Below, in pieces: positions 18,893-58,800 of a stretch of DNA of 64,000 nucleotides. The position numbers were made by a program, and so were the translations under genes. The stretch comes from Bifidobacterium sp. ESL0728 (GTDB lineage: Bacteria; Actinomycetota; Actinomycetes; Actinomycetales; Bifidobacteriaceae), in NCBI RefSeq assembly GCF_029392015.1, contig NZ_CP113925.1, positions 806,001-870,000 on the forward strand. Reading direction: 5' to 3'. A model generated the notes under the pieces. It did not search any database. It was given only the letters and a program-made list of their open reading frames with translations, and was not told the origin of the DNA. Each line of letters opens with the position of its first letter. Position 1 is the first letter of the stretch.

Positions 18893-19440
18893 GTGCACGA
18901 CGGACCCCATGGTGGTATTACGTAATAGCAGCGTTGGTCGGCTTGCTGCTCGGCGCGATATTGGTCAAATCCGATGAAGTGAGCGGTCTCTCGCTGATCG
19001 GTGCCCCATGGTTCGTCGCGTTCGTCCTGATACTGCTGGGTGCCGCGGTTTTGATATTGGCTTTGCAGGTTCACCAATACGCCATCACTGACCCAAGAAG
19101 ACGCAAAAGCTGGATCGACCCGACCAAAGCCGTGTATACGCTGGTGCTATGCAAGGCGCTTGGTATTGCCGGGGCGGGTCTTGCCGGTTGGTATTTGGCG
19201 CAGGCTTTGCTATGTCTGCCTCATTGGAGCATCCCGTATTTCCAGAACGTGGTCATCCAATGCGCGGTGACCGGCGTCATCTGCATCGGCGACATGGTGG
19301 TGGGCATCGTCGGCGAATGGCTTTGCCAGCTGCCGCCGAGCGAAGGTGCCGAGAACCCGAAGATCAAGGCCGCCAAGCGTCGCGAACGCCAGCGCAAACT
19401 TGCCGCCGGAGGCTCTATGAGCAAAAGAAGCGATAGCTGA
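18889..19440 (+). CDS. DUF3180 family membrane protein
   Basis: The 183-residue protein has four membrane helices (about residues 8-26, 45-65, 85-108 and 120-140) and a basic C-terminal tail with KAAKRRERQRK. Position and topology match the actinobacterial DUF3180 proteins that follow the folate genes. No biochemical role is established. It starts on an ATGA shared with the FolK-like gene. No hairpin terminator is clear downstream. Confidence 0.8.
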   Translation: MSARRTPWWYYVIAALVGLLLGAILVKSDEVSGLSLIGAPWFVAFVLILLGAAVLILALQVHQYAITDPRRRKSWIDPTKAVYTLVLCKALGIAGAGLAGWYLAQALLCLPHWSIPYFQNVVIQCAVTGVICIGDMVVGIVGEWLCQLPPSEGAENPKIKAAKRRERQRKLAAGGSMSKRSDS

Positions 19441-19442
19441 CC

Positions 19443-19534
19443 GGTAACACTTCGAATATTTGGTCCGTAACACATCAAATATCTGACTGGTAATGTCTGA
19501 ATCTTCAGATTGGCAATGCTCCAAACGCAAGGAC
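19443..19534. repeat. Four degenerate 23-bp direct repeats
   Basis: Units begin at 19443, 19466, 19489 and 19512, each opening with GGTAACAC, CGTAACAC, GGTAATGT or GGCAATGC and followed by a TCNAAT-like block. The 23-bp period (about two helical turns) is constant. The last unit runs into a small frameshifted reading frame. They could be stacked binding sites or decayed simple repeats. Confidence 0.45.
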
Positions 19535-25802: not shown

Positions 25803-27977
25803 GTGCCGAAGCGTCGTACTCATAAAAATAATTCAGACAACTCTGCTGATTTTAGGGGCGGAGAATATGCAGGCTCACCAATGAATAATCCTGATTCCTA
25901 TAACTCGAACAAGTCCAAATCGAAACAGGCCGAAGAAGCTGCCGAAAGCGCGGCTGCCTACGCCAAGACCGGCGACCAGCCCGAGCGCAGCTTCGCCGAA
26001 CTCGGCGTGCCGGGCCCGCTGGTAAGCGTGCTGGCGCGTGACGGCAAGACCGTTGCCTTCCCGATTCAAGCCGACACCCTCGGCGACTCCCTGGCAGGCC
26101 GCGATGTACTTGGCCGAGGCGAGACCGGAAGCGGCAAAACGCTGGCATTCGCCATCCCGCTGGTCACCCGTCTTGGCGAACAGGGCGAAGGCGAGGCCGC
26201 GATGCGCGATTTCGAACGCATGGACCGCGGCGACCGCAAGGCTCAGAAGCGCGCCATGCTGCCTCATCCGCATGGGATGATTCTTGCTCCCACGCGCGAA
26301 CTGGTCAACCAGATCAACGAGGTTGTGGCTCCGCTCGCCGCTGCCTATGACATGCAGACCGCTACCATTTACGGCGGGGTCAAATACAGTCGCCAGATTT
26401 CCGAGCTCAAGGCCGGTGCCGAAATCATCGTCGCCTGCCCCGGGCGTCTCGAGGATCTGCTGCGCCAAGGCGCGCTTTCCATCGAGGACGTTGAGGTCGC
26501 AGTGCTTGACGAGGCCGATGAAATGGCCGATATGGGCTTCCTGCCTTCCGTGCAACGCCTGCTTGAGCAAGTCGATCCCAACGGCCAACGCATGCTCTTC
26601 TCCGCGACGCTTGACCACGGCGTCGATAAGGTGGTCAAGCAATTCCTGCACGACCCGAAGATCCACGAGATCGCACCCGCCGATGCTCAGGTCGACACCA
26701 TGACCCATCACGTCTTCGAGGTCTCGCAGGGCAACAAATACGAAGTCATCCGCGAACTCGCCAGCGGCAAGGGCAAGCGTATCCTCTTCACCCGCACCAA
26801 ATATCAGGCTAAAAAGATGGCCGACAAGCTCGTCAAGGAGGGCATCCCCGCCGTCGACTTGCAGGGCAACCTTTCGCAGAACCAGCGTGACCGGCATCTG
26901 GCCGCGTTCACTTCCGGGGACGTCAACGTGCTTGTGGCCACTGATGTGGCCGCGCGCGGCATCGATGTCAGCGACGTGGCGATGGTCGTGCAGACTGAGC
27001 CGCCGGAGGACCCGAAGTCCTTCCTGCACCGTTCCGGCCGTACCGCGCGCGCTGGTGAATCCGGCGACGTGGTGACGCTCGTTTTGCCGCAGCAGCGCCG
27101 CGACGCGCGTCAGATGCTGCATCGGGCCGGTATCAAGGCCAAGAGCCAGCAGATCGTTCCGGGAGCTCCTGAGCTGGAAGAGTTGGTGGGGGAGCACGCC
27201 CCGCTGGTCGAAGGCTGGACGCTTACGGTGCCCGTGGTCAATCGCAGGGCCGGGCGCACTGGCCGCGGTGGACGCAACGAAGGTCGCGGCGGGCGTGGTT
27301 ACGGACGCAAAGACCGTGGCGGGCGTCGTGATCGTAACAACCGACATGGTGATTCCGGACGTTCGTTCAACAAACGTGGCCGTGACGATTCCTTCGAAGA
27401 TGCCGGTGGCCGTGGTGGCCGTGATGGCGGTTTCAACGATTCCAGAGATTTCAATGATTCACGTTCGCATGGCGGACGCCGTGACGGGCACAAGAACCGC
27501 AATCCGCGTTACGATGACGGTCAGGGGCCAATCGATGGTCGTTCCTCGCGCGGTCGTCGTGATGATCGTCGCTCGCATAAATTCTATGATGACGATTACC
27601 GCAAGGGTAGCGGCAAGCGTTCGCGCCATTCCGATTTCGATGAACGTGGCCAGCACGGGGGCAAGAGCAAGAACCGTCATTATGAAGGCAAGCGTTCCGG
27701 CGGACGCAATGGCGGCTATTCCGAGGGTTATGGCGATTCCTACGGTTCCGGAAAGTCAAACCGTCACGGTGGCTACGGCAAGTCCGGCGGTCGTGGTCGT
27801 GGACGTGACGAAGGTTACGAAGGCCGTTCAGGTGGTCACGGACGCGATGGCAGCCGTGACCGCAACGATGGTTACCAAGGTCGTTCCGGAAACCGCAACC
27901 AGCGCTCGCGCAAGGCCGACGGTTTCCACCGTTCGCATGGTAAGCGCAACTCGACCCCGTTCCGTCGTTCACGCTGA
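25803..27977 (+). CDS. DEAD-box RNA helicase with long RGG/GRD-rich tail
   Basis: ATP-dependent RNA unwinding; probable cold-shock, ribosome-assembly or RNA-decay role. The helicase core (about residues 60-460) has the Q motif, GETGSGKT, PTRELV, GG, LDEADEMADMG (DEAD), SATLDHG, VATDVAARGID and HRSGRTARAG. From about residue 480 to 724 the tail is almost entirely Gly, Arg, Asp, Ser, Asn and His, with many RGGR/GYG patterns. It is probably disordered, RNA-binding and able to phase separate. The start is GTG 25803, with GAAAGG upstream. The tail DNA is repetitive and so a likely spot for length variation. Confidence 0.93.
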   Translation: MPKRRTHKNNSDNSADFRGGEYAGSPMNNPDSYNSNKSKSKQAEEAAESAAAYAKTGDQPERSFAELGVPGPLVSVLARDGKTVAFPIQADTLGDSLAGRDVLGRGETGSGKTLAFAIPLVTRLGEQGEGEAAMRDFERMDRGDRKAQKRAMLPHPHGMILAPTRELVNQINEVVAPLAAAYDMQTATIYGGVKYSRQISELKAGAEIIVACPGRLEDLLRQGALSIEDVEVAVLDEADEMADMGFLPSVQRLLEQVDPNGQRMLFSATLDHGVDKVVKQFLHDPKIHEIAPADAQVDTMTHHVFEVSQGNKYEVIRELASGKGKRILFTRTKYQAKKMADKLVKEGIPAVDLQGNLSQNQRDRHLAAFTSGDVNVLVATDVAARGIDVSDVAMVVQTEPPEDPKSFLHRSGRTARAGESGDVVTLVLPQQRRDARQMLHRAGIKAKSQQIVPGAPELEELVGEHAPLVEGWTLTVPVVNRRAGRTGRGGRNEGRGGRGYGRKDRGGRRDRNNRHGDSGRSFNKRGRDDSFEDAGGRGGRDGGFNDSRDFNDSRSHGGRRDGHKNRNPRYDDGQGPIDGRSSRGRRDDRRSHKFYDDDYRKGSGKRSRHSDFDERGQHGGKSKNRHYEGKRSGGRNGGYSEGYGDSYGSGKSNRHGGYGKSGGRGRGRDEGYEGRSGGHGRDGSRDRNDGYQGRSGNRNQRSRKADGFHRSHGKRNSTPFRRSR

Positions 27978-28072
27978 AAACGCAACTCGCCCCGTCTGCT
28001 GTTCGCTCTGAAAGCGTGCTGTGACAGTTCGATTCGCTGTCCGTTAGCTCAACCTATCTCATCAAAGATGTC

Positions 28073-28529
28073 ATGGATTCCCATGGCATCTTTTGCTTTG
28101 CCGTCAGAAAAGTGCATTTTGTATCACGTAAAGTGCACTTTTGTGACGTTAACGTCGAAAAGGTGCAGGTTATGGGTCGTAAAGTGCACTTTTTCAATGT
28201 TGCCGTCGAGAAAGTGCAAATTGTGGAGGGCAAGGTGCACTTTCCGTACGGTGGTGTCAAGAAGATACAATCGGGCGGTTGAGGTGCACTTTTTACACGG
28301 TGGCGTCACGAAAGTGCAGGTTATGGGTCGTAAAGTCCACTTTTTCTACGGTAGCGTCGGGAAAATGCGTGTTATCGCTGACAAGGTGCACTTTTCCATC
28401 AGTGGCGTTAGAAAAGTGCGGACTATGGAGGGCAAGGTGCACTTTTTGCACGCTGATGTCGGCAATGTGCAAGCTCCGTCGTGTAAAGTGCGCTTTTCCG
28501 GCGTAAAGGCCATGATTATGCTCCTATAA
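28073..28529 (+). pseudogene. 17-residue repeat protein gene with a 2-bp frameshift
   Basis: Reading from the ATG at 28073 gives MDSHGIFCFAVRKVHFVSR and then 17-residue units with consensus KVHFxxGGVxKVQVMGR. The third full unit (28232-28280) is 49 instead of 51 bases long, so the frame closes at 28282. Beyond it, frame +2 restores the same pattern (EVHFLHGGVTKVQVMGR and so on) to a TAA at 28527-28529. Undoing the deletion gives about 153 residues of alternating strands. No convincing ribosome site is present, so it may never have been translated, or may be a decayed remnant. I do not recognise a family. Confidence 0.4.
28079..28512. repeat. 51-bp tandem repeat array, about eight and a half units
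   Basis: Unit starts (core AARGTGCAC) are at 28130, 28181, 28232, 28281, 28332, 28383, 28434 and 28485. A leading degenerate unit lies at about 28079-28129. All spacings are 51 except one of 49. Each unit carries AAAGTGCACTTT, a perfect 12-bp palindrome in the best copies, and a second AAAGTGCA about 30 bases later, so AAGTGCA recurs at alternating 30/21 spacing. Flanking 27978-28078 and 28513-28537 show nothing else. Confidence 0.85.
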
Positions 28530-28537
28530 GACACTGG

Positions 28538-31500
28538 GTGGGTGCAGCGAATAGAGTTGACATCGTGAATGATGGCAAAGATGGGGTGCATACGATGAAC
28601 GCGACGAGTGGTGACGACAATAATCGGAAAGATCGCGCCGGAACCAATGTAGCCGGTTCTTCAATCCCGCAGGCCATCGAAGTGCGGGGCGCCCGCGTCC
28701 ACAATCTTCAGGATATCGACGTTTCCATTCCGTTGAACGAACTTGTCGGCATCGCAGGGGTTTCAGGTTCCGGCAAATCGTCGCTGGCGTTGGGCGTGCT
28801 CTATGCCGAGGGTTCGCGTCGCTATCTTGACGCGCTTTCGACCTATACCCGTCGCCGGATGACTCAGGCCGAGAAACCGCAGGTCGATTCCGTACGGTTC
28901 ATCCCGCCGGCTTTGGCGCTGCGACAGCGTCCGGACGTCGGCGGCATGCGCTCGACTTTCGGCACTTCAACGGAGACCCTGAACGTGCTGCGGTTGATGT
29001 TCTCGCGACTCGCCTCGCATCGCTGCCCGAACGGGCATTATCAGAAACCGACGCTCGATGTCGCCGCCGAAATCCCGATTCATTGCGCTGTCTGTGGCGC
29101 ACTCGTCGAACCTCCCAGCGCCGAGCAGATGGCGTTCAATTCTACCGGTGCCTGTCCGAAATGTCAGGGAACCGGAACCATTCACGAAGTCAACGATTCC
29201 GCGTTGGTTCCTGACGAAAACCTCACCATCGACGAAGGTGCCGTCGTGCCGTGGCGCACGTTCGGTTTCAACGTCCAGCCCGATATCGTCCGCGAATTCG
29301 GGGTGCGCACCGATGTTCCGTTCAAGGAACTGACCGACAAGGAACGTGACGTCGTTTTCAATGGGCCGGAGGAGAAGAAGCCGATTACCATCACTTCGAT
29401 CAAAGGCGTGCACCATATCGACTTCACGTTCCGCAACGCGAGGTTGACGGTGACCAAGGAACTCGATCGTGCCAACGACGAGAAGCGTCTGGCCAAAGTC
29501 TCGAAGTTTCTGGTCGAGAGGACTTGCCCGGATTGTGGCGGGTCGCGTTTGAATGTTGCAGCAAGAGCTCCGAAAATCGGCAAGTATAACCTTGCCGAGG
29601 TCACGGCATGGCCGTTGCGCAAGGTGCTCGAATGGGCCAAAACGGTTCCGGAATCCTTGCCGCAGGATATGCGACAGATGGCCGAAAGTCTGGTCGATAC
29701 GTTAGAGGACATGGGTCGCAGGCTCATCCAGCTTGGTTTGGGTTATTTGACACTCGATCGCGCCAGTACCACACTTTCCACCGGCGAACGGCAGCGTGCC
29801 CAGCTCTCGCGTGCAGTGCGCAACGAGACCACGGGCGTGCTATACGTGCTCGACGAGCCTTCCACCGGCTTGCATCCGGCCAATATCGAAGGACTGATTG
29901 GTGTGATGCGAGACTTGCTGGCTTCCGGCAATTCTGTGGTCTTCGTCGACCATGATGTCCACGTTCTCAACGCTGCGGATTATTTCATCGAAATGGGTCC
30001 GGGTGCCGGAAGCCGGGGTGGGCGTATACTCGCGCAAGGTGCGCCGGCTGAAATATTACATAACCCGAAGTCACGTATCGCCGGTTTTCTTGACGGTTCC
30101 CAGCCGGTAGTTGTCCGCAAACATCTCGCGCTGCCGCCGGTTTCTCCGGACTTGCGCAGGTTTATGAATATGCCAAGTCCGAATGATGAGGTCGCCAATT
30201 ATCAACGCAAAGGTGATCAACAATCGAATCATGTTCATGCAAAAGTGACTTCAGCCAAGGCTGTAACCACGCCAACGGTTGGTGATCAAGCCAATGTCTC
30301 GGCGAATGTCGCAGTGACTGATTCCCATTGGATCACCATGGCCACCGATACCATCCATACCGTGCATCCGCTGCATGTCGCCATTCCGCGCGGGCGGATG
30401 ACCGCAGTCACCGGCGTCTCAGGATCCGGTAAAACGACGATGATTCTGGAGTCGCTGATTCCCGCTTTGCAGGCGCAAGAGAACCACACGCCGCTGCCGT
30501 CACATGTTCGTTCTCTTGATGCTGCCGGCATCACACGTGTGCGCTTGGTCGATTCCACGCCCATCGGTATCAACGTTCGTTCGACGGTCGCCACCTACAC
30601 AGGCATCATGGATATGCTGCGTAAGGCATTCGCTTCTACGGCATCAGCCAAGAAGCGCAAGCTCAAGGTCTCCGCGTTTTCCTACAACACCGGAACGCTC
30701 CGTTGCCCGCAATGCGACGGTACCGGTCAGATCAGCCTCGATATCCAGTTCCTTCCTGACGTCACCATCATCTGCCCGACCTGCGAAGGACGGCGATATC
30801 GTCCGGAAGTCAACGATGTGCGGCTCGCGACGCCGACGCATCCACAAGGGTTGACGCTTCCCGAAGTGCTGGATTTGGAGGTGGACGATGCCCTCGATGT
30901 CTTTGCCCTCAATGCCGATTTTGGCTCGGCTGCGGGTTCGTCTTCTGATTCGTCTTCACGTCGTTCCTCTAACCAAAAACGGCTAACTCCGGCTGGTTCG
31001 ACTTCCGGTTTATCTTCACGTAATACATCTAATCAAAAACGGCTGTCAGCTTTGTCTGGTGCCTCAGATGCCAATGAATCTTTGAATGATTCCGATTCTG
31101 GCGATATGATCACCTTGGCCCTGCTTAAACGTATTCACAAGGCGCTGGAAACGCTTCACGACCTCGGCCTCGGCTACCTCACCTTGGGAGAAGACACCCC
31201 GAACCTTTCCGGTGGCGAAGCTCAGCGTCTCAAGCTTTCCAACGAACTCGGCAAGCGGCAGAGCACGTCGCTTTTTGTCCTTGACGAACCGACGACCGGT
31301 TTGCATCCACTGGACGTGCGTACGTTGATTGACGTCTTGCAACGCCTCATCAAAGGCGGAGCCACGGTGATCTTCATCGAGCACGACCTCGATATGATCG
31401 CCAACGCCGACTACGTCATCGACATGGGCCCAGGCGGTGGCGAGGAAGATGGTACGGTCGTCGCCACCGGCACGCCTGACGAGATTGCCGATGACCCCGC

Positions 31501-31564
31501 CAGCATCACCGGACGCTACCTGGCCCAACATCTGGCTGGTAGTGATAGCCAAGCAGCAAAGTGA
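28538..31564 (+). CDS. Class II UvrA-like ABC ATPase (UvrA2/DrrC type)
   Basis: 1008 residues with two UvrA-type ATPase halves. The first has GVSGSGKSSLALGVLYAEGSRRY and signature LSTGERQRAQLSRAV, then YVLDEPSTGLHP. The second has GVSGSGKTTMILESL and LSGGEAQRLKLSNEL, then FVLDEPTTGLHP. Zinc-finger pairs are CPQC...CPTC in the second half, and CAVC, CPKC and CPDC in the first. The UvrB-binding segment of true UvrA appears to be missing, which points to the UvrA2 group linked to DNA-damage tolerance or drug self-resistance rather than core repair. A Ser/Asn-rich linker holds a 60-bp (20-residue) duplication at 30953-31072. Start uncertain: GTG 28538, GTG 28565 or ATG 28595, none with a clear ribosome site. 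Confidence 0.85.
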   Translation: MGAANRVDIVNDGKDGVHTMNATSGDDNNRKDRAGTNVAGSSIPQAIEVRGARVHNLQDIDVSIPLNELVGIAGVSGSGKSSLALGVLYAEGSRRYLDALSTYTRRRMTQAEKPQVDSVRFIPPALALRQRPDVGGMRSTFGTSTETLNVLRLMFSRLASHRCPNGHYQKPTLDVAAEIPIHCAVCGALVEPPSAEQMAFNSTGACPKCQGTGTIHEVNDSALVPDENLTIDEGAVVPWRTFGFNVQPDIVREFGVRTDVPFKELTDKERDVVFNGPEEKKPITITSIKGVHHIDFTFRNARLTVTKELDRANDEKRLAKVSKFLVERTCPDCGGSRLNVAARAPKIGKYNLAEVTAWPLRKVLEWAKTVPESLPQDMRQMAESLVDTLEDMGRRLIQLGLGYLTLDRASTTLSTGERQRAQLSRAVRNETTGVLYVLDEPSTGLHPANIEGLIGVMRDLLASGNSVVFVDHDVHVLNAADYFIEMGPGAGSRGGRILAQGAPAEILHNPKSRIAGFLDGSQPVVVRKHLALPPVSPDLRRFMNMPSPNDEVANYQRKGDQQSNHVHAKVTSAKAVTTPTVGDQANVSANVAVTDSHWITMATDTIHTVHPLHVAIPRGRMTAVTGVSGSGKTTMILESLIPALQAQENHTPLPSHVRSLDAAGITRVRLVDSTPIGINVRSTVATYTGIMDMLRKAFASTASAKKRKLKVSAFSYNTGTLRCPQCDGTGQISLDIQFLPDVTIICPTCEGRRYRPEVNDVRLATPTHPQGLTLPEVLDLEVDDALDVFALNADFGSAAGSSSDSSSRRSSNQKRLTPAGSTSGLSSRNTSNQKRLSALSGASDANESLNDSDSGDMITLALLKRIHKALETLHDLGLGYLTLGEDTPNLSGGEAQRLKLSNELGKRQSTSLFVLDEPTTGLHPLDVRTLIDVLQRLIKGGATVIFIEHDLDMIANADYVIDMGPGGGEEDGTVVATGTPDEIADDPASITGRYLAQHLAGSDSQAAK

Positions 31565-31573
31565 AACGCTGTT

Positions 31574-32011
31574 TTATCCTTCGGTTAGTCCGTCATCGAG
31601 ATTACTGACAAACTCGTCACTGCTGATTTTGGGCACTGACGAATTGAGGAATGCCTTGGCATCGCGCGAGACAAGGCAGTCGGCCTGCCAACGCTCGGCA
31701 CATGCGCGGATAATCCCGTCTTCAAAATCTGGTTCGTCGGAATTGACTGCTGTTTTGCAAATCGCATTGTCGATTGGGAGAACTTCGAAGGCGTCGATAA
31801 ATCTGCGCATCCAATTGCGTCGTTTCGTTTCTGGCATGTCATGACGCGAGATGTAATAGGCATCTTTAAGACTTCCCGCGCAGACTGCGACATTGGGCTC
31901 GTGGCTATGGGAGACTCGCATGAAGAACGAAAATGCTGCATCCGAATTTGGGCGGTCGGTGGCCATGATATCAAGCAGAAAATTGGTATCTAGGAAAATT
32001 TTATTTTTCAC
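31574..32011 (-). CDS. PIN-domain toxin
   Basis: VapC-like ribonuclease toxin. The 145-residue protein begins VKNKIFLDTNFLLDIM with the first metal-binding Asp, has DEPDFEDGIIRACAE with the middle acidic pair, and LVSRDAKAF with the last Asp. I chose the GTG at 32011, 10 bases after AGAGGAG. It overlaps the antitoxin by 11 bases. The longer reading frame from 32038 lacks a ribosome site. RelB/DinJ-type antitoxins with a PIN partner are a known mixed arrangement. Confidence 0.85.
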   Translation of the reverse strand: MKNKIFLDTNFLLDIMATDRPNSDAAFSFFMRVSHSHEPNVAVCAGSLKDAYYISRHDMPETKRRNWMRRFIDAFEVLPIDNAICKTAVNSDEPDFEDGIIRACAERWQADCLVSRDAKAFLNSSVPKISSDEFVSNLDDGLTEG

Positions 32012-32312
32012 GGTGTGACAACTCCTCTTTGACGTCATCCGGTGTGAGTCTTCCCATATAGGAAGGCAATTTTATCGACGCCCTATCTGCCTTGGCTTCT
32101 TCAATCATTTTCTCGGGATCCATCTGATGCTTCGGGTACCCGATTTTGAACCCGGTGGGGTAGGAGGATGGCTGGAAGGGTAGCATGCCGTCGCGCACGC
32201 TCTGTTTCAGGAACATCGTGATGGCCGTGGTCATATTGAGCCCCATTTTTTCGAAAAGCTCCGCCGCGTCCTGCTTGAGTTCCGGGTCGATGTTCATCGT
32301 CAGTTTTGCCAT
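32001..32312 (-). CDS. RelB/DinJ family antitoxin
   Basis: The 103-residue protein has a ribbon-helix-helix N-terminus, AKLTMNIDPELKQDAAELFEKMGLNMTTAITMFLKQSV, which is the DinJ signature. It dimerises, binds the operon promoter and, through its C-terminal tail, neutralises the toxin. The ATG at 32312 has AGAGGACG upstream. The frame is open for 29 codons further upstream but that part has no start of quality. The tail is followed directly by the PIN gene. Confidence 0.85.
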   Translation of the reverse strand: MAKLTMNIDPELKQDAAELFEKMGLNMTTAITMFLKQSVRDGMLPFQPSSYPTGFKIGYPKHQMDPEKMIEEAKADRASIKLPSYMGRLTPDDVKEELSHREK

Positions 32313-32802
32313 GTCGTCCTCTTTGAAGTTCCGTACCGTATTTTTCGGTATCTTCAGTATAGGACGAGTAGCAGTATGTTGTATAGTCAATGTACCCATA
32401 ATAACCTTCCAATAGCCGTATCATTTCTCTTATTCATCAAGTCTATTGGTGCTATACGCCTCGATGCAAGCTGAAACGGGTACTGTGGTCGGATGCTCGA
32501 AACCCTTGGAACGAAGCCGATTTGAGTATCAAAAAGCGGTGTGGATAACTATTTTCTTATCCACACCGCCATGTACAAGCCAAAACCTCGGTTGAGCTAT
32601 ATTGAATCCAGCTCGATCTGGGTTTCGGTTCTGCGTCCCGAGTCGGGTCCAAAACCTGATTCAGTCGTTTGCAACAGACTCGGGTTCCTATTTCGCCTGA
32701 TTCAGGTTTCGGTTTTATCTCGCCTCAGCTGCGTTCACTTTGTGTAGAGACTCGGTCTTGGTTGAGTTCCATCCCCGGACTCAGCCCAGCCCCGGCTCCA
32801 GC
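32313..32802. other. 490-bp non-coding region with a dispersed intergenic element
   Basis: It lies between the antitoxin (5' end) and msrAB (3' end). It carries the 22-mer shared with 21993-22014 (here 32478-32499), TTTGAGTATCAAAAA (32521-32535, also in the loop at 22176), and the DnaA-box hairpin listed separately. Further on (32600-32790) come degenerate CTGATTCAGGTTT / AACCTGATTCAG inverted repeats and several CTCGG/GACTCGG repeats. I see no gene; the reading frame at 32541 has no coding character. Confidence 0.55.
32536..32569. repeat. Hairpin made of two inverted consensus DnaA boxes
   Basis: GCGGTGTGGATAA (32536-32548) pairs perfectly with TTATCCACACCGC (32557-32569) around an 8-base loop. 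Each arm contains the exact 9-mer TGTGGATAA/TTATCCACA. There is no T-tract, so it is not a typical terminator. Confidence 0.65.
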
Positions 32803-41498: not shown

Positions 41499-42597
41499 CA
41501 TCGAGAAATTACTTACGCAGCTTTGTCCTGATGGAGTAACGTACCTGCCTTTAAAGGATGTTGCCGATATTAAAAACGGGAAAGACTATAAGCATCTTGG
41601 TGCTGGAAATATTTCCGTTTATGGTAGTGGCGGCAAAATGGATGTAAAAGTCGACGCAGCGGCATATGACAAGCCAACAGTACTATTGCCTCGCAAAGGA
41701 TCAATTAGCAATATCTTTTACGTTGACGAACCATTTTGGAATGTTGATACTATTTTTTATACGATTATTGATACTGCACGCATGATTCCGCGGTTTTTAT
41801 ATTATGTCATGTTGAATGAGCATATTGAGAATCTGGGTACTAGCAGTGCTGCTCGACCTTCACTTACGCAAAGTGTACTTAAAGAGATTCTTGTTCCAGT
41901 ACCACCTTTAAAGGTGCAACAGGAGATTTTACGAATCTTGGATACATTTACGGAGCTTGAGTCTGAGCTTGAGTCTGAGCTTGAGTTGCGTAAGATTCAA
42001 TTCAACTTTTATAAGGGGAAGCTATTTGCTTTTATGACGAATGCTGAATGGCTGGAATTAGGCGATTTAGTTAATATTCTTGATACTCAGCGAAAGCCAG
42101 TTACGAGAGGGGACAGAGAGTCTGGGCAAATACCTTATTATGGTGCAAATGGGATTCAAGATTATGTCAAACATTTCATATTTGACGGAACTTTTTTGCT
42201 TGTCGGAGAGGATGGATCAGTACTTACAGAAGCTGGTAAACCGGTATTAAATTGGGCAACAGGAAAAATTTGGGTGAACAATCATGCCCATATTCTTGAG
42301 CAGAGGGAAAATAAGCCAATGCTCAGATATATTATGTATGCTCTCAGTTCGATTGATATCTCTGAATTGGTGCATGGTACGCCGCCTAAACTTACTCAAA
42401 AAAGCCTAAGAACTATCCGAGTGCCGGTGCCCTCACTTGCCGAGCAACAGAGGATTATAGATATTCTTGACCGATTTAATTTGCTCACGACTTCATCCAC
42501 TGATGGACTGCCCGCCGAGATTGCTGCACGGCATCAACAGTATGAGTATTATCGAAATAAGTTACTTGATTTTCCAAGAAAGAAGACTGAGGCATGA
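41491..42597 (+). CDS. hsdS: Type I restriction-modification specificity subunit HsdS
   Basis: Recognises the bipartite DNA target for methylation and cleavage. 368 residues with two target-recognition domains (about 15-140 and 195-325), each ending in a conserved helical spacer: VPVPPLKVQQEILRILDTF and VPVPSLAEQQRIIDILDRF. The central spacer holds a 12-bp tandem repeat coding ELES (41953-41988). I chose the ATG at 41491 with TTGGAGGGAAAGG upstream; the frame is open 25 codons further but within the previous gene. The stop shares ATGA with hsdR. Confidence 0.93.
   Translation: MSNIEKLLTQLCPDGVTYLPLKDVADIKNGKDYKHLGAGNISVYGSGGKMDVKVDAAAYDKPTVLLPRKGSISNIFYVDEPFWNVDTIFYTIIDTARMIPRFLYYVMLNEHIENLGTSSAARPSLTQSVLKEILVPVPPLKVQQEILRILDTFTELESELESELELRKIQFNFYKGKLFAFMTNAEWLELGDLVNILDTQRKPVTRGDRESGQIPYYGANGIQDYVKHFIFDGTFLLVGEDGSVLTEAGKPVLNWATGKIWVNNHAHILEQRENKPMLRYIMYALSSIDISELVHGTPPKLTQKSLRTIRVPVPSLAEQQRIIDILDRFNLLTTSSTDGLPAEIAARHQQYEYYRNKLLDFPRKKTEA
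41953..41988 (+). repeat. 12-bp tandem repeat in the hsdS central spacer
   Basis: GAGCTTGAGTCT occurs at 41953-41964 and 41965-41976 identically, and at 41977-41988 with one change. The repeat is in frame and codes ELES-ELES-ELEL in the helix between the two target-recognition domains. Confidence 0.9.
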
Positions 42598-58670: not shown

Positions 58671-58698
58671 GCGTTATTGTTGGGTATCGTTCGATAGC

Positions 58699-58800
58699 GT
58701 TTCGTCGCGATGTTGCCATCTTCGTGGTTGTTTCGTCGCGATACCGCCATTTTTGTAGCGTTTCGTCGTGATACCACTGTCTTTTAGCGTCACGACGGAA
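58699..58800. repeat. Degenerate 30-bp tandem repeat after the FMN reductase gene
   Basis: GTTTCGTCGCGA recurs at 58699, 58730 and 58760, with a weaker copy at 58789 (spacings 31, 30 and 29). On the minus strand one unit reads as ten codons, IATKRYKNGG. The following 58801-58980 is GC-rich then AT-rich with small CCGGTACCGG palindromes. I see no gene there. Confidence 0.6.

Follow-up and report, generated by a model that had tools for sequence, protein, structure and literature searches.

Intergenic arrays of phased palindromes in Bifidobacterium: candidate operators of a putative chromosome-level DNA-binding protein

The intergenic region between a DEAD-box RNA helicase gene and a gene for a UvrA-like ABC protein of Bifidobacterium sp. 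ESL0728 harbours tandem repeats of 51 bp. Each repeat can be translated into 17 residues and carries a palindromic core as well. Is the repeat the remnant of a gene, or a DNA element in its own right? The original prediction had offered both readings. To answer this question we analyzed the window (the whole stretch of 64,000 nucleotides around the repeat), the complete home genome and congeneric Bifidobacterium genomes.

Composition of the array and its surroundings

The array and its flanks consist of the following features:

25803–27977, plus strand: upstream gene, DEAD-box RNA helicase (Pfam DEAD and Helicase_C), flank only
28064–28093, plus strand: terminator-like hairpin of the helicase gene, just 5' of the array (fold z = -4.9)
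28109–28496, plus strand: whole array, 15 palindromic cores with alternating 21/30-bp spacing
28109–28129, plus strand: 5' half unit, core B AAAGTGCATTTT and linker
28130–28180, plus strand: unit 1, 51 bp, perfect core AAAGTGCACTTT
28181–28231, plus strand: unit 2, 51 bp, perfect core
28185–28218, no strand: example of the candidate 34-bp dyad operator, TGCACTTT-N18-AAAGTGCA
28232–28280, plus strand: unit 3, 49 bp, linker with a 2-bp deletion
28281–28331, plus strand: unit 4
28332–28382, plus strand: unit 5
28383–28433, plus strand: unit 6
28434–28484, plus strand: unit 7
28485–28496, plus strand: terminal core AAAGTGCGCTTT
28595–31564, plus strand: downstream gene, UvrA-like ABC protein, flank

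The sequence bears out what the original prediction described: an array with a period of 51 bp, the AAAGTGCACTTT palindrome and one deletion of 2 bp. The bounds given there (28079–28529) had to be revised to 28109–28496; position 28079 falls within the hairpin of the upstream gene. The repeat proper begins at approximately 28097, with the first clear core at 28109, and ends near 28496. Instead of the eight units counted before, we found seven full A-B units, the half unit at 28109 and the last core at 28485. The plus strand at the array corresponds to the leading strand of the right replichore.

Each unit is composed of a TGCA-centred 12-bp palindrome, a central GACGnnnnCGTC palindrome and a second TGCA-centred palindrome, and is joined to the next unit through a 9-bp G-rich linker. 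With two cores per unit, located at +0 and +30, the underlying rhythm is 30/21 rather than plain 51 bp. In unit 3 the linker measured 19 bp instead of the usual 21 bp. Throughout the window 12 palindrome matches with up to two mismatches were detected compared to 2.4 expected, a number reached by none of 100 shuffles, and 11 of these were located inside the array. Tandem Repeats Finder reported only 2.2 copies for the array because the units are only about 70% alike.

The hairpin at 28064–28093 has a 13-bp stem followed by TTTTGCTTT and was not called by the consensus scan. On the other side, the probable ATG of the UvrA-like gene (28595) is located approximately 100 bp past the end of the array. 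Further downstream, a toxin-antitoxin-like pair was present on the minus strand (31574–32399), flanked by the UvrA-like gene and a gene for methionine sulfoxide reductase and judged by eye to be a PIN-like protein and a DinJ/RelB-like antitoxin. Additional short tandem repeats of the window at 41953–41986 (12 bp, perfect, 2.8 copies), 58690–58775 (31 bp, 2.8 copies) and 19433–19493 (23 bp, 2.7 copies) had unrelated consensus sequences.

Distribution of the family, reading frame and constraint

A search of bifidobacterial genomes, suggested along with the original prediction, revealed a dispersed family in roughly 11 of the 112 genomes of the genus; in the 100 arrays analyzed the frame was not conserved. 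Within these 112, many strong matches were found in the home genome (G000) and in G082–G086 and G088–G090, fewer in G091 and G092, only one or two weak matches each in G052, G074 and G098, and none in G087 and G093. The family is thus of narrow distribution, and as the latter two lack it, the genus can do without it. The home genome (2,590,841 bp) carries approximately 17 arrays, which are dispersed and without exception intergenic. Their neighbours have unrelated functions and are arranged in tandem, convergent as well as divergent settings.

An orthologous array was present elsewhere for 12 of 16 home arrays. At the helicase/UvrA-like locus, where the orthologue of the UvrA-like gene marks the equivalent site in other species, arrays were also found in G082, G083, G089 and G090 and weaker remnants in G085, G086 and G091. 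The same locus of G093 represents an empty site (L059), which is preceded by a similar hairpin; here the gene just starts at a shorter distance from the hairpin. The arrays of G083 were far larger than those of its relatives, reaching 908 bp with 36 cores (L089:1921-2828) by recent expansion of units.

The family had no match in plasmid or phage collections. A scan with the strict operator pattern over 84,980 species, a set that may omit close relatives of the window itself, yielded Bifidobacterium sp. ESL0682 and five other genomes. The latter were taken as chance findings: L078 and L079 matched the unit model weakly and just once each, the remaining loci not at all. The open-access literature searched yielded no description of dispersed rhythmic palindrome arrays in Bifidobacterium.

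Outside the clade of the 51-bp family, the genome G033 carries a dispersed family of its own. It follows the same plan (AAgTGCAgTTTTCCTGACCAGGCTGGTCAGGAgAGaTGCAgTTTGGGG) with a period of 53 bp, found in 199 of 229 spacings, some arrays being counted twice owing to overlapping loci. In total, 97 distinct units were obtained from approximately 11 places fetched (L045:2187-2448 and L140–L159). Of the 112 genomes searched, none of the remaining ones contained the 53-bp family. The orientation of the arrays around parB was not consistent in this draft genome. Judged from their sequences the two families appear alike in plan and may be either homologous or convergent. Their sequences differ by lineage, GACG-type in the 51-bp and CTGACC-type in the 53-bp family.

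A decayed or frameshifted gene for a beta-repeat protein of 17-residue units could account for the period of 51 (3 x 17), for sub-spacings that are both divisible by three and for the long ORF (28068–28529) spanning the array. The frame that had been described as lost and regained does exist in the ORFs 28073–28282 and 28068–28529. It is not protected, however, and its loss and regain follow from the period of 51 bp. In 296 distinct gap-free units aligned from the 100 arrays, the KVHF frame contained 95 stops compared to 97.8 after column shuffling, hence stops are not avoided. The three codon positions varied equally (1.04, 1.04 and 1.13 bits), and the third bases of the core GTG and TTT codons were nearly invariant. 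Moreover, 50 of 57 spacing changes were out of frame, only 7 being multiples of three, and the array-spanning ORFs matched neither a Pfam family nor a PDB structure. Homologous arrays with unit lengths not divisible by three had been named beforehand as an argument against a protein, and the G033 family of the same architecture has a period of 53 bp. On the evidence of stops, codon positions, indel phase, Pfam, PDB and the G033 period, we regard the recently decayed beta-repeat protein as refuted, with next to no probability left. The other suggestion, a DNA element whose period is a multiple of three by chance, is supported. The arrays caution against annotating small ORFs of the KVHF type as proteins.

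The same alignment revealed where the constraint lies. Of the core-to-core intervals in the 100 arrays, 741 of 786 were exactly 30 or 21 bp. Changes in spacing amounted to 0.0028 per bp compared to 0.31 substitutions per bp, so that indels were about 100 times rarer; in unconstrained bacterial DNA the ratio of substitutions to indels is usually about 10–20. The TGC of the core was mostly 96–99% conserved, with a mean of 69% for all columns. Taken together, the TGC, TTT/AAA and GAC/GT positions were mostly 75–99% conserved, whereas the linker columns were nearly random. Between arrays, units agreed in 88% of the core columns and in 47% of the others. From the conserved cores, the nearly random linkers and the rarity of spacing changes, selection seems to keep both the cores and the rhythm. 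We are highly confident that the arrays represent non-coding, constrained DNA.

Dyad symmetry, chromosomal placement and candidate functions

The base-frequency matrix of the units correlated with its own reverse complement about one axis (r=0.86), the next best axis reaching 0.30. Watson-Crick pairs in the paired columns were as frequent as expected (2919 vs 2930, z -0.7, 296 units), and in the G033 family covariation was not found either (z -2.6, 97 units). Selected RNA or cruciform hairpins would covary, and dyad symmetry without covariation fits the site of a dimer. The sequences are thus pointing to the operator of a dimeric DNA-binding protein rather than to an RNA hairpin. The palindrome had been considered a possible protein-binding or hairpin site; the dyad supports the former, and the lack of covariation leaves the latter unsupported.

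To analyze the chromosomal placement, origins were located from parS clusters and orthologous arrays were collapsed to 36 independent sites. The origin half held 31 of them (p=1.3e-5, KS p=1e-6, calculated without a matched control of other intergenic repeats). Array-free stretches extended from 0.98 to 1.93 Mb in the home genome and from 0.86 to 2.17 Mb in G089. Additionally, 31 of the 36 sites were in leading-strand orientation, with 22 to 1 among the clear cases. The polarity may be due in part to ordinary replication-linked C-to-T and A-to-G mutation, since third codon positions show the same direction, with leading strands of these genomes gaining T and G. The skew of the arrays (0.24) nevertheless exceeded that of intergenic DNA (0.10).

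Three other explanations have to be weighed against a binding protein with a chromosome-level role. A transcribed array of RNA hairpins, acting as regulatory RNA, mRNA stabiliser or attenuator, would agree with a unit consensus that is able to fold and with G-T oppositions that outnumber A-C oppositions on one strand (417 vs 135). This excess, however, goes with the replication strand and not with adjoining transcription, just as the polarity of the arrays tracks the replichore and not the direction of the adjoining genes. Compensatory changes were absent from both families, Watson-Crick pairs being at or below random, the array of the window begins after a terminator-like hairpin, and the window had no Rfam match, which makes RNA hairpins highly improbable. 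Covariation would likewise be expected of REP hairpins that are recognised single-stranded, and its absence speaks against an extragenic palindromic repeat of selfish or neutral nature (REP/BIME- or MITE-like), which was spread by a mobile enzyme, expanded in tandem and is now decaying, its spacing being a matter of ancestry. Such an origin would readily explain a dispersed, intergenic and clade-limited family, the differing copy numbers of orthologous arrays, the long recent expansions in G083 and the lineage-specific second family in G033. However, the Y1 transposase/RAYT (PF01797, Y1_Tnp) was found in none of the array-bearing genomes searched. Neutral decay should strike cores and linkers equally, yet the TGC has been kept while the linkers are nearly random. 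The rarity of indels, the kept orthologous placement and the origin bias do not fit either, and we consider a selfish repeat unlikely, although it deserves to be taken seriously.

If an ordinary transcription factor controlled each adjoining gene, its operators would be palindromic, intergenic and often upstream of a gene, as many of the sites are. Isolated GTGCACTTTT...AAAAGTGCAC dyads between argJ-/argB-like genes and 5' of a dipeptidase-like gene would also suit local regulation. On the other hand, the neighbours have no common function (kinase, D-Ala ligase, UvrA-like, nitroreductase, thioredoxin-like, rhomboid) and some arrays are located between convergent genes (L006, L013). As up to 36 cores per array and the origin bias are not accounted for either, control of the single neighbouring genes appears improbable.

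The gap between the argJ- and argB-like genes contains two of these dyads, approximately 73 bp apart, with variable loops and a core spacing of 27 bp. They were present at L044:2227-2330 (G089, near the terminus), in L042 near 2434 (G084) and in L017 near 2219 (G082), and are perhaps isolated sites of the putative array-binding factor. A similar pair was located upstream of a C69-type dipeptidase-like gene in G084 (L041 near 2371).

We slightly favour a family of intergenic operator arrays for a putative homodimeric protein with a chromosome-level role. Considered by themselves, the sequence features indicate that the arrays are probably bound by protein, and service on the scale of the chromosome is a tentative suggestion. 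The conserved and mostly origin-proximal addresses, the unrelated neighbours and the avoidance of the terminus make a chromosome-level job likelier than local gene control. We infer a binding protein, cooperative binding and a cellular role as follows. A sequence-specific homodimer would most likely occupy the TGCA cores and perhaps also the central GACGnnnnCGTC palindrome. As 30 + 21 = 51 bp corresponds to five turns at 10.2 bp, neighbouring dimers would share one face of the helix, could bind cooperatively and would thereby form a large nucleoprotein patch. Such patches might act in nucleoid organisation, in anchoring or in the timing or placement of division, similar to the sites of SlmA, Noc and RefZ.

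The array-bearing genomes searched revealed no ParB paralogue peculiar to them. They carried only the parS-linked ParB with the exception of the home genome, which had one extra, as did the array-less G087. The extra ParB_N-domain gene (G000:C1:1054322-1054600) has a similar copy in G087 and no counterpart in the remaining array carriers searched.

A bolder and rather doubtful proposal is a new chromosome-marking system, in which a protein with a fast-changing recognition sequence would coat long, phased and replication-polarised arrays at conserved origin-proximal sites and may link cell division to replication or segregation along a pathway distinct from those of SlmA and Noc. Should a chromosome-organising protein indeed land on the arrays, these would provide a handle on how bifidobacteria couple replication and segregation to division.

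Relation to known site families

REP/BIME elements with their RAYT share the intergenic, palindromic, clustered and dispersed nature of the arrays. The arrays differ from them by the strict 30/21 spacing, orthologous placement, origin bias and the lack of hairpin covariation. Membership in this group was rejected, since the array genomes searched lacked the Y1 transposase and the units lacked covariation. KOPS and Chi are short single motifs spread along the chromosome and not arrays of spaced palindromes. Their polarity is aligned with replication as is that of the arrays, which may in part be mutational.

The nucleoid-occlusion sites of SlmA and Noc are short palindromes that stand separately instead of forming 51-bp arrays with as many as 36 cores. 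Like the arrays, they are specific sites scattered over the chromosome; their consensus differs from that of the arrays. SlmA sites are origin-proximal (PMC4117426) and Noc sites are another known analogue (PMC4331003). The array genomes searched are, however, without a clade-specific ParB/Noc paralogue. The RefZ motifs (RBMs) of Bacillus are five near-palindromes to which a TetR-family protein binds; they lie near oriC and on both arms, and the genus has conserved their location with respect to oriC (PMC6657595). RBMs and arrays are both near-palindromic with conserved chromosomal addresses, but five motifs stand against many tandem arrays here. The arrays may thus resemble the sites of SlmA, Noc and RefZ at most by analogy. 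As in sites of this type, they are enriched towards the origin and depleted at the terminus, with 31 of 36 sites in the origin half.
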